From: a virus
Strand: one strand, 5' to 3'
Length of the DNA stretch: 37,931 bases
IMG/VR virus record: IMGVR_UViG_3300028589_000362
Coordinates: 1-37,931 of that record
Numbering within the stretch: the stretch's first letter is position 1; the number at the start of each line of letters is the position of its first letter. The notes beneath the pieces were generated by a model. It did not search any database and had not been told where the DNA came from. It was given only the letters and a program-made list of their open reading frames with translations. The position numbers and the translations under genes are program-made. Shown piece by piece: positions 14,455 to 37,031 of this stretch.

Positions 14455-14721
14455 TCAGGACTTACGTTCGTGTTCGTCGAGGGCCGGCAGCAGCACCCGG
14501 TCAAAGATCCACTGGATGCTCCGGTCCTCCCTCACGCCGGCGGCCCGGAGCCGTTCCAGCGTGGCCTCCGTCATGCGGAAGGTATAGGACTTGTCCTTGC
14601 GGGCCCTGGCTGCATGAGGGGGTGGGGATACAGCGGTCAGCGTGTCGGCCTGCAGGGCAAACTCCTCGGGGGTGATGGTCGGCACCGCGGCGCGGCGGGC
14701 TGGTGTGGGGCGGTCAGACAA
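14455..14721 (-). CDS. Small ParB-like centromere-binding protein
   Basis: An 88-residue protein directly after parA, overlapping it by 8 bases. A disordered N-terminus (SDRPTPARRAAVPTITPEE) is followed by ARKDKSYTFRMTEATLERLRAAGVREDRSIQWIFDRVLLPALDEHE, which reads as strand-helix-helix: the ribbon-helix-helix layout of small plasmid ParB/ParG-type adaptors. The start is TTG at 14721. With ParA it would bind the repeats upstream of parA and regulate the operon. Name assigned from layout and context, not from close similarity. Confidence 0.6.
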   Translation of the reverse strand: MSDRPTPARRAAVPTITPEEFALQADTLTAVSPPPHAARARKDKSYTFRMTEATLERLRAAGVREDRSIQWIFDRVLLPALDEHERKS

Positions 14722-15355
14722 GGTCGATCAACTCCTGAACTAGAACCTGGATCTCGGCCTTGGCCTTGTAGTCCGACCACTCCACCACTCCCCGGCCCAA
14801 CGGGTTCACCGTGGCGTAGGCCGTCCGCATTCGCATGGTCGTGTCGAAGAGCGGAATCTCAGGGTAGTCTGCCAGCACCGACTTCGCATCGTCCAGAGAT
14901 CGGTCCCGGTCATTGGTCGCGGCCTGAGTAAACAGGCCCCGGACCACCAGGTCCGGGTTGTAGTCCTCCACCCCGGTGATCACCTCGACGAAGTGCGGCA
15001 GGGTGTCGGTGTCCATCGAGGAGGGCCGGACGGGGGCGATCAGAACGTGGGAAGCGATGGCGGCGGAGCGCAGTTCCTGCGAGTCGAATCCCCCGGTGTC
15101 GACCAGGACAACGCCCCAGGCCCGGTCCATGTCGAGCAGCGTGTTCTTCAGGTCGCCGCGCTTCTGGATCCCGGTCACCCGCGGCAGGTCCGGGCTGTGC
15201 TGCTCCCGGTAGGCGACCCAGCGGGAGACCGAGGTGTTGGGGTCCGAATCGACGACCAGGACCTTCTGGCCCTGCCGGGCCAGCTCGGCGGCGATGTTGA
15301 CCGTGAGCGTGGATTTACTGCAACCACCCTTGTGGCTACCTAGTGTCACTATCAT
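14714..15355 (-). CDS. parA: ParA-family partition ATPase
   Basis: A 213-residue ParA/MinD-type ATPase of the short (type Ib) class without an N-terminal HTH. The deviant Walker A is KGGCSKST (residues 9-16, with both signature lysines), the A' motif VVDSDPNTSVSRW, and Walker B VVLVDTGGFD. Length matches the ParA of small plasmids and of extrachromosomal actinophages. It would position phage-plasmid copies before division by dynamic binding to the nucleoid. ATG with GAAAGGGG upstream; promoter and repeats lie immediately upstream. Confidence 0.85.
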   Translation of the reverse strand: MIVTLGSHKGGCSKSTLTVNIAAELARQGQKVLVVDSDPNTSVSRWVAYREQHSPDLPRVTGIQKRGDLKNTLLDMDRAWGVVLVDTGGFDSQELRSAAIASHVLIAPVRPSSMDTDTLPHFVEVITGVEDYNPDLVVRGLFTQAATNDRDRSLDDAKSVLADYPEIPLFDTTMRMRTAYATVNPLGRGVVEWSDYKAKAEIQVLVQELIDLV

Positions 15356-15385
15356 TGCGAACCCCTTTCGTTGGGAGCTGGTTCC

Positions 15386-15414
15386 ACTCTAGTTGTAGGT
15401 GGGTTGCATGTCTA
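15386..15414 (-). promoter_or_regulatory. Candidate parA promoter
   Basis: On the leftward strand TAGACA (15409-15414) and TAGAGT (15386-15391) are 17 nt apart. One GTTGCA repeat of the upstream cluster sits in the spacer, as expected if the ParB-like protein represses its own operon. Confidence 0.5.
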
Positions 15415-15590
15415 GTTGGAACTGACTGCATGTTGGTTGCCAACTAAGTGCACACCGCATCCACACTGGTTCGGATGTGCAACCGCATTCTCTAACTGGT
15501 TGTGATGTCGTTGCAAAGTGCAACCACTCTGGTTGCCAACCAGTTGCAATCTGCTTCCACACTGCATTCGATGCGGTTGGGTTGTGCAAT
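15401..15590. repeat. GTTGC repeat cluster, candidate parS centromere
   Basis: The spacer between parA and the divergent HTH gene has at least seven GTTGC(A/C) elements in both orientations. They include GTTGCA at 15403, GGTTGCCAAC at 15435 and again at 15531, TGCAAC at 15478, a GTTGCA-AAG-TGCAAC inverted pair at 15510-15524, and the perfect palindrome CTGGTTGCCAACCAG at 15529-15543, followed by GTTGCA at 15543. Iterated short sites next to a ParA gene are typical centromeres. Confidence 0.6.
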
Positions 15591-15614
15591 GGTTTATCGT
15601 GTTAGGGTGAAGCC

Positions 15615-16118
15615 ATGAATATCATTCAACCAGGCGACCAGATCGTCCGCCAGCTGCGGGCCCGCGATTGGACCCAGCAGATCCTCGCCGAGGTCATGGG
15701 CCGGCCGGCCCAGGTGGTGTCCGAAGTTATCAACGGTAAGAAGGAAATCACCCGGGAGACCGCAGCGCAGCTCGGTGCTGCGCTGAACACCACGCCGGAG
15801 TTCTGGCTGCACCTGCAGGACGCCTACCTCCTGGAGCGGTTGGAGCGGGATGCCGTGTTCCAGGAGAAGTTGGATGCGATCACGCGCCGGGCGGAGAGCG
15901 TTGTGATCCAGCCCCCGCCTGCCCGGCCGAGGTACACGGTGACCTGGTCCAGCGAGGAGCGCAGGTATGTCGCCACGGTGGATGTCTACCCGCACTTGCG
16001 GGCCACGTCCAAGGGTGAGGACTATGCCCTGCGGAAGCTGAAGGCACTCATGGCTGCTGCGCGGAGGGCTGAGAAGTCGGGGCAGGAGCCTCTAAAGACA
16101 GGGCGTAAGGACTCCTAG
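15615..16118 (+). CDS. HigA-like XRE protein with HicB-like C-terminal domain
   Basis: A 167-residue protein. Residues ~1-70 match the HigA/VapI antitoxin pattern (GDQIVRQLRARDWTQQILAEVMGRPAQVVSEVINGKKEITRETAAQLGAALNTTPEFWLHLQDAYLL). Residues ~105-150 (RYTVTWSSEERRYVATVDVYPHLRATSKGEDYALRKLKALMA) read like the partial RNase-H fold of HicB antitoxins. No toxin lies next to it. It is divergent from parA and shares the repeat-filled spacer, so it may regulate partition or act as a prophage regulator. ATG with AGGGTG. A HicA-like protein is encoded 2.1 kb away (18229-18441). Confidence 0.65.
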   Translation: MNIIQPGDQIVRQLRARDWTQQILAEVMGRPAQVVSEVINGKKEITRETAAQLGAALNTTPEFWLHLQDAYLLERLERDAVFQEKLDAITRRAESVVIQPPPARPRYTVTWSSEERRYVATVDVYPHLRATSKGEDYALRKLKALMAAARRAEKSGQEPLKTGRKDS

Positions 16119-33260: not shown

Positions 33261-33512
33261 TTACCCCCGCGTCTCTCGCGGGGTGGTATTGGCCGGGTAG
33301 CGGCGGAGCTGGCAGTACCGCCCGCGCTTGTTCCGGTAGCTGTAGTAGTCGTCCCCGGCATCCAATGCCCGGACGGCGGCCGCGTGGGTTGGTACCCAGT
33401 TGGGAAGAATGGCCGGTTTGAGCCCGGCAATTTTGACCTGGTCAGCGGCCCGGCTAAACGGGGTCGAGTGGCCAAATTCGGTGACCATGTAGAGCCACGA
33501 ATTGTCCGTCAC
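33261..33512 (-). CDS. Small hypothetical protein
   Basis: An 83-residue basic protein (TDNSWLYMVTEFGHSTPFSRAADQVKIAGLKPAILPNWVPTHAAAVRALDAGDDYYSYRNKRGRYCQLRRYPANTTPRETRG). GTG at 33512 overlaps the upstream gene in GTGA. Unknown function. Confidence 0.5.
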   Translation of the reverse strand: MTDNSWLYMVTEFGHSTPFSRAADQVKIAGLKPAILPNWVPTHAAAVRALDAGDDYYSYRNKRGRYCQLRRYPANTTPRETRG

Positions 33513-33658
33513 AGGTTATCCCTCCAGAATTGGGCGACTTCCAAATCGAAAGCCACGCGTTCGGAGCGGAGGAATTTGGCGTAGCTGATAATTACGGCTA
33601 CGGCCATGCCTATGGAGAACAATCCAAGCACTACGCCGATAACGGCTAGGACTTGCAT
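33509..33658 (-). CDS. 49-residue single-span membrane protein, first gene of the early operon
   Basis: Read directly from the sequence: MQVLAVIGVVLGLFSIGMA followed by VAVIISYAKFLRSERVAFDLEVAQFWRDNL. Residues ~1-26 form a membrane helix; the remainder is a charged amphipathic tail. ATG at 33658 with AGGA at 8 nt. It is the most upstream gene of the long leftward operon, just after the 33718-33773 promoter-like repeat. Small early membrane proteins in phages often act in exclusion or membrane anchoring; no direct evidence. Confidence 0.6.
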   Translation of the reverse strand: MQVLAVIGVVLGLFSIGMAVAVIISYAKFLRSERVAFDLEVAQFWRDNL

Positions 33659-33717
33659 GGCGATTGTTCCTATCCCCTAGAGCCGCCCGGATGGGCGGGT
33701 TTATGGCGGGCCGGTGA

Positions 33718-33773
33718 TTTGTTTACCGGCTTATTTCCAACCTAGCGGGTACTGTCAAATAAACCGGTTACGC
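33718..33773 (-). promoter_or_regulatory. 56-bp repeat R1: leftward promoter with inverted-repeat operator
   Basis: Leftward TTGACA (tgtcaa at about 33753-33758 on the plus strand) is followed after 17 nt by AATAAG. Flanking it are arms ACCGGCTTATTT and AAATAAACCGGT (one mismatch), so each arm overlaps one promoter box. Placed ~70 nt ahead of the first early gene. A second copy is R2. Confidence 0.6.
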
Positions 33774-33852
33774 GCTAGTTCCTATCGGCCCGGTGTATCC
33801 GGGCGGCCGGTGTAGATACCGGCCAGCGGGCCGCCAGATAGCGGCCCGGGCG

Positions 33853-33938
33853 GGCCGCCGAAGCGGCCCGGGGTACGCGGCCCGGGCGGCCGCCGAAGCG
33901 GCCCGCCCGGCCAAACCGGCCCGGCCGCCGAAGCGGCC
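33853..33938. repeat. Three 16-bp GGCC hairpins at 35-bp period
   Basis: Exact copies of GGCCGCCGAAGCGGCC at 33853, 33888 and 33923. Each is a 6-bp stem with CGAA loop; the 19-bp spacers differ. Four more exact copies lie in the following gene (34403, 34475, 34910, 35135). Confidence 0.8.
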
Positions 33939-33945
33939 CGGCCGG

Positions 33946-34001
33946 TTTGTTTACCGGCTTATTTCCAACTTACGGGAGGTAGTCAAATAAACCGGTTACG
34001 C
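33946..34001 (-). promoter_or_regulatory. 56-bp repeat R2: second leftward promoter/operator copy
   Basis: Same length as R1; the first 24 and last 20 bases are identical and only the 12 bases between differ. Leftward TTGACT-17-AATAAG, again with the inverted arms. A transcript from here would cross the hairpin array and R1. Confidence 0.55.
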
Positions 34002-34097
34002 ATATCCCCGATAGTCCGGTTTAGGCGTACTCTGTGAAGTGTTAGCTAGTTGGATAGGCGGGCCGCCCGGCCCGCCCGTAGATAAGGGGTAACCGAA

Positions 34098-35528
34098 GTG
34101 ACTGCACTAGTTGAATCTCCGGCCGAAGCGGCCGCGGCCGAACGGGCCGCCATAGCGGCCGAACTGGCCGCCCGGAATATCCCGGACGAAAAGAAAGAAC
34201 CAGAGTTCAAACCGACGGCACGGGCCGCCCGGGCCGGAGCGGCCCGCCGGAAAATTGGCCGCGTGGAACTGTCGGCCGAAGACGCTACCCCGGCCGCAAA
34301 GCGGCTTGGATGGGGTACATGGAATAGCCACTACACGCGGATAGAACTGGCCGATTTGGCCGCCGAAGCAAAGCGGCTAGAACGGGAGTCGAAGCGCAAA
34401 GCGGCCGCCGAAGCGGCCCGGATCCGTGACCTAAAGCGACTGGCCGTAATGGTCCGTACCGAACTACCGGAAGCGGCCGCCGAAGCGGCCGCCCGGGCCG
34501 GTGAATCGGCACAACTGGACTACGCCTCACAACTGGCCGAAGCGGCCGCGGTATTGGGCGGATCCGAAGCGGAAGCGGCCGAAGTGATCCGGGCCGCGGC
34601 CGCCTATCGGGAGACAGACAAACCGGCCCGCCCGGGGGTATCAAAAGCCGGTTACGGATCCGCGCTTACCCCGGCCGAACTGGCCGCCGTTCGGGAGTGG
34701 ACGAAGTCCGGACTAGCTACCCCGGCCGCCGAAGCGGGCCGGGCCGCGCTGGCCGCTATCGGCCCGCGGGCCGCCGGTGTGGTGATCACAAACCGGGCCG
34801 CCGATACCCTCACTATCGCCCGTTCGGTTCGGGTACCGTCGGCCGCCGTCGGCCGCCGTCGGGCGGATGCACTGGCCGCCGAACTGGCCGAAGCGCAAGC
34901 AAAGCTTGCGGCCGCCGAAGCGGCCAGCAAAGCGGCCGCAAAGCGCAAAGCAAAGCGGCCCGCCGATGCGGCCGAAGCGGATGCAAACCGGCTTGCGGCC
35001 GCCGTCGGCAGACTGGCACGGCGGGCCGATTTGGCCGCCCGACTGGCCGAAGCGGCCGAAGCTCTGGCCGGTTTGGAACTGGCCGAACTAGAGCCATATA
35101 TGGCGGATCCGGCGGCCAGTCTCCCGCTGGCCGCGGCCGCCGAAGCGGCCGGGGTATCGCTCCGGATCCGGGCCGACGTTATGCCCGTCCAGTACCGATA
35201 CACCGGCCCGAACGTATCCGCGGCCCGGCTTGTTTCCGGCCGCGGACACTACACAATGGCGGCCAGCGGAGTAAGTGATCCTACGGGCGGCGCCGCGGCC
35301 GAACTGGCCGACGGATACCGGGCCGAACTGGCCAAAGTGGAAGCGGCCGCGCTGGCACTGGCCGAACGGACGGCCGGAGAATCGGCGGCCGCCGGAGCTA
35401 TCCGGGAACGCAACGAACGGGCCGAAGCGTACAAAGCGCGGCGGGCCGAAGCGGCCCGGATCCGGCGGGCGGAAGCGAAGATGCACGGCAAGAACGAACG
35501 GCGAAGCGCAAAGCGGGCCGCCCGGTAA
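34098..35528 (+). CDS. Alanine-rich coiled-coil protein (GGCC-biased gene)
   Basis: A 476-residue basic protein, about a third alanine. Long A/E/R/K helices (residues ~1-40, 90-175, 240-320, 380-476) alternate with less repetitive parts: YGSALTPAELAAVREWTKSGLATPAAEAG, VVITNRAADTLTIARSVRVPS, and LRIRADVMPVQYRYTGPNVSAARLVSGRGHYTM. No known catalytic motif. It resembles long helical plasmid proteins such as KfrA only in character. GTG at 34098 with AAGGGG 8 nt upstream; a perfect terminator follows. Codons are biased to GCC/GCG and to GAA for glutamate, unlike most neighbours, where GAG is common. Suspected role: DNA or nucleoid organisation; unproven. Confidence 0.75.
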   Translation: MTALVESPAEAAAAERAAIAAELAARNIPDEKKEPEFKPTARAARAGAARRKIGRVELSAEDATPAAKRLGWGTWNSHYTRIELADLAAEAKRLERESKRKAAAEAARIRDLKRLAVMVRTELPEAAAEAAARAGESAQLDYASQLAEAAAVLGGSEAEAAEVIRAAAAYRETDKPARPGVSKAGYGSALTPAELAAVREWTKSGLATPAAEAGRAALAAIGPRAAGVVITNRAADTLTIARSVRVPSAAVGRRRADALAAELAEAQAKLAAAEAASKAAAKRKAKRPADAAEADANRLAAAVGRLARRADLAARLAEAAEALAGLELAELEPYMADPAASLPLAAAAEAAGVSLRIRADVMPVQYRYTGPNVSAARLVSGRGHYTMAASGVSDPTGGAAAELADGYRAELAKVEAAALALAERTAGESAAAGAIRERNERAEAYKARRAEAARIRRAEAKMHGKNERRSAKRAAR

Positions 35529-35546
35529 TACCGGCCCGAACGGACT

Positions 35547-35577
35547 TACCCCCGGCCAGTTTGGCCGGGGGTATTTT
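35547..35577 (+). terminator. Perfect terminator of the coiled-coil gene
   Basis: TACCCCCGGCC pairs perfectly with GGCCGGGGGTA around AGTTT, followed by TTTT. It lies 18 bp after the stop codon. Confidence 0.9.
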
Positions 35578-35772
35578 CATGCCCGTAAGCGGCCGCCGAC
35601 GGGCCGCCAGCGGCCCGGGCGGATCCGGGCGGGCCGACGGCCGACGGCCGACGGATCCGGGCCGCCAGCGGGCCGCCAGCGGCCCGGCCCGGGCCGGGCC
35701 GGATCCGGCCGAATGTTGGAACCAGGAGGCCAGGACTAAAAAATACTAGGACGTCCAACTATTTGCCGACAA

Positions 35773-35882
35773 GGTTGAAGATTCAACCAATGTTCGAGCT
35801 GCGAGGCTTTGTCCTATTGTCCTAACATACTTAGTTGAACTTTCAACCTAATGTTCGGCCGGCTTGATATTGTCCTATTGTC
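35773..35882. repeat. Two tandem 61-bp origin- or operator-like units
   Basis: Each unit has a GTTGAA-NN-TTCAACC palindrome (35773-35788; 35833-35848), AATGTTCG, 12 variable bases, then TTGTCCTATTGTC (35809-35821; 35870-35882). The surrounding 190 bp is much AT-richer than the GGCC background. Confidence 0.65.
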
Positions 35883-36175
35883 AGTATGTCCTGACAAACT
35901 AATTTCGTTAGTGCCTGGTCCGAACCTCCGGCCCGGATCCGGCCGGGCCGGAGCGGCCCGGATCCTGCCGACGGCCGGAAAACGGCCAAATCGGGCCGCC
36001 CGGGGTCCGGATCCGGCCGACGGGGGTCCGGATCCGGCCAAATCGGCCAAAAGCCGGGGGTATGCCAGCGGCCCGGGGGTATATGACAAGCCCGGCCCGG
36101 GCCGGAAATAGGGTACAGCGGCCCGCTATGCCACCTAGAACGGCCGAACGGGCCGGGCGGATAGAACTAGCCTAA

Positions 36176-36277
36176 AACGGGGGTATCGGGCCGGAGAATG
36201 GCACCTATGGCCAGTCAGCGAAAACGGGCCGCCCGGTGTGGAGTACCCGAACGGGGGTATCGGGCCGGAGAATGGCA
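36176..36277. repeat. 28-bp direct repeat
   Basis: Identical 28-bp copies at 36176-36203 and 36250-36277, starting AACGGGGGTATCGGG and ending GAGAATGGCA. An ATACCC-CCATA-GGGTAT hairpin follows at 36291-36307. Confidence 0.8.
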
Positions 36278-36353
36278 TACAGCGCGTCTTATACCCCCAT
36301 AGGGTATGCCCTCCGGACCCCTATTCTACTGGCCGTAGAATGTCACGCTGGCA

Positions 36354-36481
36354 TGACAAATCATGTCAAATCATACCCGCCAGTCAGTTAGTGGCCATTC
36401 ACTGACTGGCCAGTCAGTTAGTCCAGACTAACCGGATCCCAGTTAGCGGCGCCTAACTGAGGTGCGAACTACACCGGTGTA
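36354..36481. repeat. Cluster of tandem repeats and perfect palindromes
   Basis: TGACAAATCA/TGTCAAATCA tandem (36354-36373); GCCAGTCAGTTAGT at 36379 and 36409; the 18-bp palindrome ACTGACTGGCCAGTCAGT (36401-36418); CAGTTAG/CTAACTG arms (36440-36459); TACACCGGTGTA (36470-36481). Confidence 0.75.
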
Positions 36482-36632
36482 ACTAGGGACGGGTGGGGGA
36501 GGTCCCGAGCCGCGGCCGCGCCCCTGCCCGCGCGTGATAGCGGCTGGCGTGCTGTACGGAATCAGAAGTTGCGTATTGGGCAACCGGATCCGGGTTAATT
36601 TCCGGAATCAGCCAGGGACGGCTTTGCCGGGG

Positions 36633-37031
36633 TCACTCGTCGTCGAAGTGCCGGCGGTCCCGCATCAGGAACCGGAAATTCAGCTCTGCCATCAGCTCTT
36701 TGTCCGTGAGATGGGCCGCGGTAGTCAGGCCGACCGGCTCCGGGGGCTGGAAATCCTCGACCGTGACGGAGCCGAACTTGTGATTGCGGCGGTTCTCCCA
36801 GAACTCCCGCATGGCGCCCTCGCGCCAGCCATAGAACCGCTCCACGGCCCGCAGGGTGGCCGGATTGGGGCCCTTGCTGGACCTCAGCTCGGCGCGTTCC
36901 AGGCCGCCCAGGGTGCGGTAGTTGATTCCCATGGCGTCCGCCACGTACTGGCGGGTGTGACCGGTCTTGTCCCGGGCCGCGGTGGTGATGACGCCAAGGG
37001 TCATCAACGCTTCTTCATCAGTCATGGACAT
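36633..37031 (-). CDS. XRE-type HTH regulator (candidate repressor)
   Basis: A 132-residue protein. MSMTDEEALMTLGVITTAARDKTGHTRQYVADAMGINYRTLGGLERAELRSSKGPNPATLRAVERFYGWREGAMREFWENRRNH: an N-terminal helix-turn-helix of the Xre kind (RQYVADAMGINYRTLGGLE) followed by an all-helical linker with the 'G.NPATLRAVE.f.gw' phrase of that family. A short C-terminal part follows (EPVGLTTAAHLTDKELMAELNFRFLMRDRRH). Divergent from the 37099 gene with 67 bp between, the classic layout of a phage control switch. ATG 37031 is used; ATGs at 37064 and 37025 also possible. Confidence 0.6.
   Translation of the reverse strand: MSMTDEEALMTLGVITTAARDKTGHTRQYVADAMGINYRTLGGLERAELRSSKGPNPATLRAVERFYGWREGAMREFWENRRNHKFGSVTVEDFQPPEPVGLTTAAHLTDKELMAELNFRFLMRDRRHFDDE

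Follow-up and report, generated by a model that had tools for sequence, protein, structure and literature searches.

A compositionally alien, dyad-rich island around an alanine-rich gene in a putative temperate actinobacterial phage: a possible foreign, moron-like cassette

A stretch of about 2.95 kb in the virus record IMGVR_UViG_3300028589_000362 (core 33,660-36,608) is a compositionally alien, dyad-rich island holding one real gene, and it lies between a leftward early operon and a repressor-like gene (36,633). We read it as a foreign, self-contained, moron-like cassette that is in addition constrained in its DNA, possibly as a protein-bound element, and we put the probability of this reading as a whole at roughly one half. 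The window analysed here is the whole record, 37,931 bases long, without end repeats and not flagged complete.

Results

Judged by its gene content, the virus is a temperate actinobacterial phage. Tail-type genes occupy the left part of the window; one gene of the tail region (959-2569) encodes a domain like the C-terminus of the N,N-dimethylformamidase beta subunit (Pfam DMFA2_C, E 5.6e-76). Other genes point to superinfection exclusion, a polymerase exonuclease, a RecE-like nuclease, a DnaB-like helicase and repressor-like proteins. A conserved neighbour gene (phrog_1362) is 66% identical to a gene of the Arthrobacter phages Kitkat and KellEzio. As this is the sole gene common to the window and KellEzio or DanielleIgnace, the phage belongs to a distant lineage. 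Its host is probably Arthrobacter or a relative. A ParA gene (14,714-15,355) lies about 19 kb from the island, with a small gene downstream and, upstream, GGTTGC-type direct repeats (15,394-15,590) followed by an HTH gene. This locus (14,455-16,118) looks like an actinophage partition locus, which suggests that the prophage may be extrachromosomal and plasmid-like. The first 33,000 bases of the window are short of several 6-bp palindromes, including GAGCTC (0 observed against 13.8 expected), CTCGAG (0 against 12.4), AGCGCT (0 against 9.2), GCATGC (0 against 8.3) and CACGTG (1 against 9.9), a shortage that looks like restriction avoidance.

The earlier note had described about 2.3 kb (33,800-36,110) with a word vocabulary of its own, both in a gene and in the DNA on either side. 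Word counts bear out the vocabulary, even more strongly than described, and the island stands, with a slightly greater extent, from 33,288 or 33,660 to 36,608. GGCC occurs 132 times in 33,660-36,640, or about 44-45/kb compared with 12/kb on both sides, and GGATCC 15 times in the same interval (about 5/kb, against 0.6/kb elsewhere). The hairpin unit GCCGAAGCGGCC, found both within the gene and outside it, is present 11 times in the island and 0 times elsewhere in the window; GGGGTAT is present 7 times, with 2 copies elsewhere. With the island core as training set, an order-2 Markov segmentation delimited 33,288-36,608 with a score of 529 bits, the next best segment anywhere in the window scoring 23 bits. 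The left edge is gradual in this segmentation, 33,288-33,700 being intermediate and the signal weak left of 33,700.

K-mer usage in the island is shifted broadly relative to the rest of the window. The TA odds ratio is about 1.5 over the island (left flank 2.28, gene 1.18, right flank 1.41) and 0.58 in the rest, CA and AG are depleted, and CTCG and CGAG together are down about 10-fold. GAA makes up 0.89 of the Glu codons in the island gene, compared with 0.16 elsewhere. The Karlin-type dinucleotide distance between the island and the rest is 372; other equal-sized pieces give 12-87. Perfect hairpins with a 6-bp stem reach 43/kb in the left flank, 33/kb in the right flank and 15/kb in the gene, and 4.5-7/kb in three other stretches. 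GATC falls inside GGATCC in 15 of 18 cases in the island and in 20 of 214 in the rest, while the left neighbour of an island GGCC is almost never A and its right neighbour almost never T. The palindromes avoided also differ: in the island they are GGGCCC (0 observed, 6.2 expected) and GCCGGC (1 observed, 7.6 expected), in the rest of the phage GAGCTC, CTCGAG and others. This difference suggests that the island has a restriction history of its own and hence came from a foreign source. Restriction avoidance had itself been proposed as a cause of the vocabulary; we reject it because the island is rich in GGCC, CGGCCG and GGATCC and avoids no palindromes but GGGCCC and GCCGGC.

A donor of the island was not found among the phages, plasmids, sampled loci and 395 actinomycete genomes searched. 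No DNA relatives emerged in phages and plasmids when long stretches of the window were run through megablast and the island through distant blastn, and blastn of the island against the same collections at E<=10 yielded chance-level matches with 1-3% coverage. Matches to Arthrobacter phage Aoka and Gordonia phage Reyja were dismissed as chance on follow-up. In the actinomycete genomes, blastn produced short GC-rich chance matches in 281 of the 395, and 0 of the 395 was rich in the dyad pattern described below; exact-word scans with island words returned nothing or unrelated loci. Contigs and phages that share the phrog_1362 gene are without such an island. The 198 phage and actinomycete loci that we sampled all lay at a Karlin-type distance of at least 195 from the island, with actinomycete chromosome samples at 298 or above. 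The nearest of the 198, at 195, belongs to a GGCC-rich phage contig (IMGVR_UViG_3300024493_000240; L116), where GGCC runs at 28.6/kb over 9.5 kb, contig-wide; this contig was rejected as a relative, being unrelated.

The island gene (34,098-35,528, plus strand), which the earlier note had placed correctly and rightly called alanine-rich, has a GTG start and 476 codons. An AAGGGG ribosome site lies 8 bases upstream of the start, and an intrinsic terminator, TACCCCCGGCCAGTTTGGCCGGGGGTA-TTTT (35,547-35,573, plus strand; RNA fold -28.1 kcal/mol, z -4.9), begins 18 bases past the stop codon. A sigma-70 scan found no sigma-70-like rightward site upstream of 34,098, and the duplicated promoter-like elements there point leftward. 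The product is basic, with 31% Ala, 12% Arg and 10% Glu. Single-sequence AlphaFold2 (mean pLDDT 57.5) predicts, at low confidence, a mostly helical protein with long helices at residues 73-153, 249-324 and 396-475. As the earlier note had anticipated from the letters, the protein matched no family or structure in Pfam, PHROGs, NCBIfam, PADLOC or the PDB, and domain and family searches recognised in it no DNA-binding or Rep/initiator domain. Homologues were absent from tblastn searches of phages and plasmids and from scans of viral and genome contigs; none was found in the 395 actinomycete genomes, a weak search in which 4 candidates were scored per genome.

The occurrence of GCCGAAGCGGCC both inside and outside the gene would fit an origin of the frame de novo: tandem growth of the GGCC hairpin repeat would have yielded DNA free of stop codons, and an open frame in it would then have been taken into use. 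Long open runs are indeed common at the island's composition, with a mean of 216 codons in simulation; a run of 476 codons was, however, reached in 0 of 500 simulated islands. GGCC is strictly phased in the gene, with 65 of 72 occurrences in one codon phase, and shows no codon phasing in the flanks, and the gene comes with a ribosome site and a terminator. We consider a de novo origin scarcely credible. The absence of phasing in the flanks also led us to reject the idea that they are decayed copies of the gene.

We evaluated constraint on the gene's nucleotides with 1000 synonymous shuffles in which the protein and the codon counts were held fixed. The gene has 72 GGCC where the shuffles give 39, and 0 of the 1000 reach its count (z about 8), whereas in the 24 other window genes of at least 150 codons GGCC z ranges from -3.1 to 2.4. 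GGATCC (6 against 2.0 expected, in all three codon phases) and GCCGAAGCGGCC (8 against 0.8) behave likewise. The element common to these words is the dyad CGG-(0-2 nt)-CCG, in the forms CGGCCG, CGGSCCG and CGGATCCG, and it is enriched in the flanks as well as in the gene. For CGG-N1-CCG we counted 12 against 2.7 expected in the left flank, 23 against 9.4 in the gene and 22 against 4.3 in the right flank, while the rest of the window falls below expectation (27 against 45). A two-base spacer is almost always AT, CGGATCCG occurring 13 times in the island and 2 times in the 33-kb rest. Together these data show that the coding sequence is constrained at the nucleotide level and that the dyads are chosen at that level, in the flanks likewise, which supports the earlier proposal that the nucleotide sequence itself is selected.

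Such constraint raises an alternative, a nucleoprotein element: by coating the dyads of its gene and of the flanks, or by bridging them, the 476-residue protein would organise the DNA or silence the locus, and base-level selection on the dyads would in turn shape the protein sequence. The dyads are the same in flanks and gene, their synonymous arrangement is far from chance, and the protein is basic and alanine-rich with predicted long helices, all of which speaks for such an element. Against this, no DNA-binding domain is recognised in the protein, and the vocabulary shift exceeds the dyads, extending to TA, AA, CTAG and GAA codons, which dyad selection alone would not produce. We regard this alternative as unlikely.

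The left flank carries a duplicated 56-bp element on the minus strand (copy 1, 33,718-33,773; copy 2, 33,946-34,001). Blocks of 25 bp and 20 bp are identical between the copies and the centre has diverged in their alignment. Both copies hold a ACCGGYTTATTT dyad, with exact arms at 33,725-33,736 and 33,757-33,768 in copy 1, and their four exact arms are the only ones in the window. Copy 1 reads TTGACA-17-AATAAG on the minus strand, and the pattern TTGACN-17-AATAAG occurs in the window only within the two copies, with 0 expected; the sigma-70 scan omits the element on account of the final G in its second hexamer. Since it faces the leftward operon, whose first gene is a 48-codon membrane-type gene (start 33,658, leftward) overlapping the next by GTGA, the element is plausibly a putative promoter and operator of that operon. 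Between the two copies lie three 35-bp hairpin repeats (33,845-33,945; spacing 35), each with GGCCGC-CGAA-GCGGCC and with an 18-base core identical at 18 of 18 positions in all three. Leftward RNA of these repeats would form C(UUCG)G tetraloop hairpins, and the array folds about 4 sd below dinucleotide shuffles, as DNA and RNA alike.

This arrangement bears on a further alternative, that assembly fused the phage contig with a piece of another replicon that has the island vocabulary. The sequence is a single public record, not flagged complete, the change of composition is sharp, and the island and its protein are without relatives in the collections searched. An artefact of this kind is nevertheless very improbable, given the gradual left edge and a promoter-like element that lies within the island and faces the phage's own operon.

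In the right flank, two GGCC/CGGATCCG palindrome blocks (35,585-35,712, DNA fold z -2.9; 35,925-36,045, z -3.8) enclose an AT-richer segment of about 220 bp (35,711-35,930). The segment has GTTGAANNTTCAACC palindromes, of the GTTGAA/TTCAAC type, at 35,774 and 35,834, together with a pair of AATGTTCG...TTGTCCTATTGTC repeats at a distance of 61 bp; we consider it a candidate binding region or origin. Further right are two identical 28-bp repeats, AACGGGGGTATCGGGCCGGAGAATGGCA (36,176-36,277, plus strand; starts 36,176 and 36,250, 74 bp apart), and a palindrome cluster (36,379-36,460; GCCAGTCAGTTAGTGGCCA..., CAGTTAGCGGCGCCTAACTGA) that adjoins the repressor-like gene. An Rfam search found nothing.

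Were the AT-richer segment a replication origin, the gene might encode its initiator, serving lytic replication or that of an extrachromosomal prophage. An AT-rich repeat segment between GC-rich palindromes has a suitable form, and the phage ParA suggests a plasmid-like prophage; parA-carrying mycobacteriophages need repA or an RNA-based origin (PMC7157519). In the parABS mycobacteriophages, however, origin and parABS are closely linked (PMC7157519), whereas in this phage 19 kb separate parA from the island, and parA has repeats and non-coding DNA of its own close by. The 476-residue protein is without a Rep domain, and the DnaB-like and polymerase-exonuclease genes sit elsewhere in the phage. 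We judge this alternative quite improbable.

Discussion

The case for a foreign, moron-like cassette draws on the large Karlin-type distance, the gene's own ribosome site and terminator, the broad codon and k-mer shift, the synonymous arrangement for GGCC/CGGATCCG, the dyad enrichment and the absence of the island from phages that share the phrog_1362 gene, although KellEzio and DanielleIgnace have no other gene in common with the window. The failure to find a donor among the collections searched weighs against it, as does more than 1 kb of non-coding DNA in the flanks, which is unusual for a moron. The low-confidence structure model of the protein also counts against it. Moreover, the promoter of the phage's own operon seems to lie in the left flank, so that the cassette may be integral to the phage. 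The step that the cassette is foreign we hold to be even or slightly better than even in probability.

Phage morons are accessory genes with their own promoter and terminator and atypical composition. The island resembles them in its foreign composition, in having a single gene that comes with a ribosome site and a terminator of its own, and in lying next to the repressor region of a temperate phage. It differs in that non-coding, dyad-rich DNA lies left and right of the gene and shares its vocabulary, that the gene is constrained at the nucleotide level and that the sigma-70 scan found no rightward promoter. A moron-like cassette thus fits the terminator, the composition and the place beside the repressor-like gene, and alone leaves the dyads unexplained.

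Other known systems match in part. Over-represented genomic palindromes such as cyanobacterial HIP1 also occupy coding and non-coding DNA, but here they are confined to 3 kb of one phage and the rest of the phage is without them. KfrA-type plasmid proteins are alanine-rich helical DNA-binding proteins; the island protein shares with them its alanine content, basic character and predicted long helices, and lacks a KfrA domain or any other Pfam match. The extrachromosomal parABS actinobacteriophages RedRock and Miko (PMC7157519) are likewise temperate actinophages with ParA and adjacent repeats, and the window has a region that could hold an origin, but here parA and the island are not linked, and the island protein shows no similarity to RepA. 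A plasmid-type Rep/ori module would call for a recognisable initiator domain and linkage to parABS, and both are absent. The earlier suggestion of a segregation element is unlikely because the phage has a separate parA locus with adjacent repeats, and the island's only gene is without a family match.

Under the foreign-cassette reading, the island would have come from a replicon having its vocabulary, and the gene product would be a basic, largely helical, DNA-associated protein. The target of this protein, or of a regulator, might be the dyad-rich flanks, with their duplicated promoter/operator-like element and the hairpin array upstream of the leftward operon. That the protein itself acts on the cassette's own DNA we hold only tentatively, as a doubtful part of the whole. 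More doubtful still is a nucleoprotein element of a kind not yet described, where codon choice would have been set by the very DNA that the protein recognises, CGG-(0-2 nt)-CCG in its gene and in more than 1 kb of flanks.

If the constraint is functional, the island would be a clean case in which selection for DNA sites, acting throughout a gene and its flanks, overrides the choice among synonymous codons. If it reflects only a foreign vocabulary, the island would point to a palindrome-rich replicon or host group absent from the genomes sampled.
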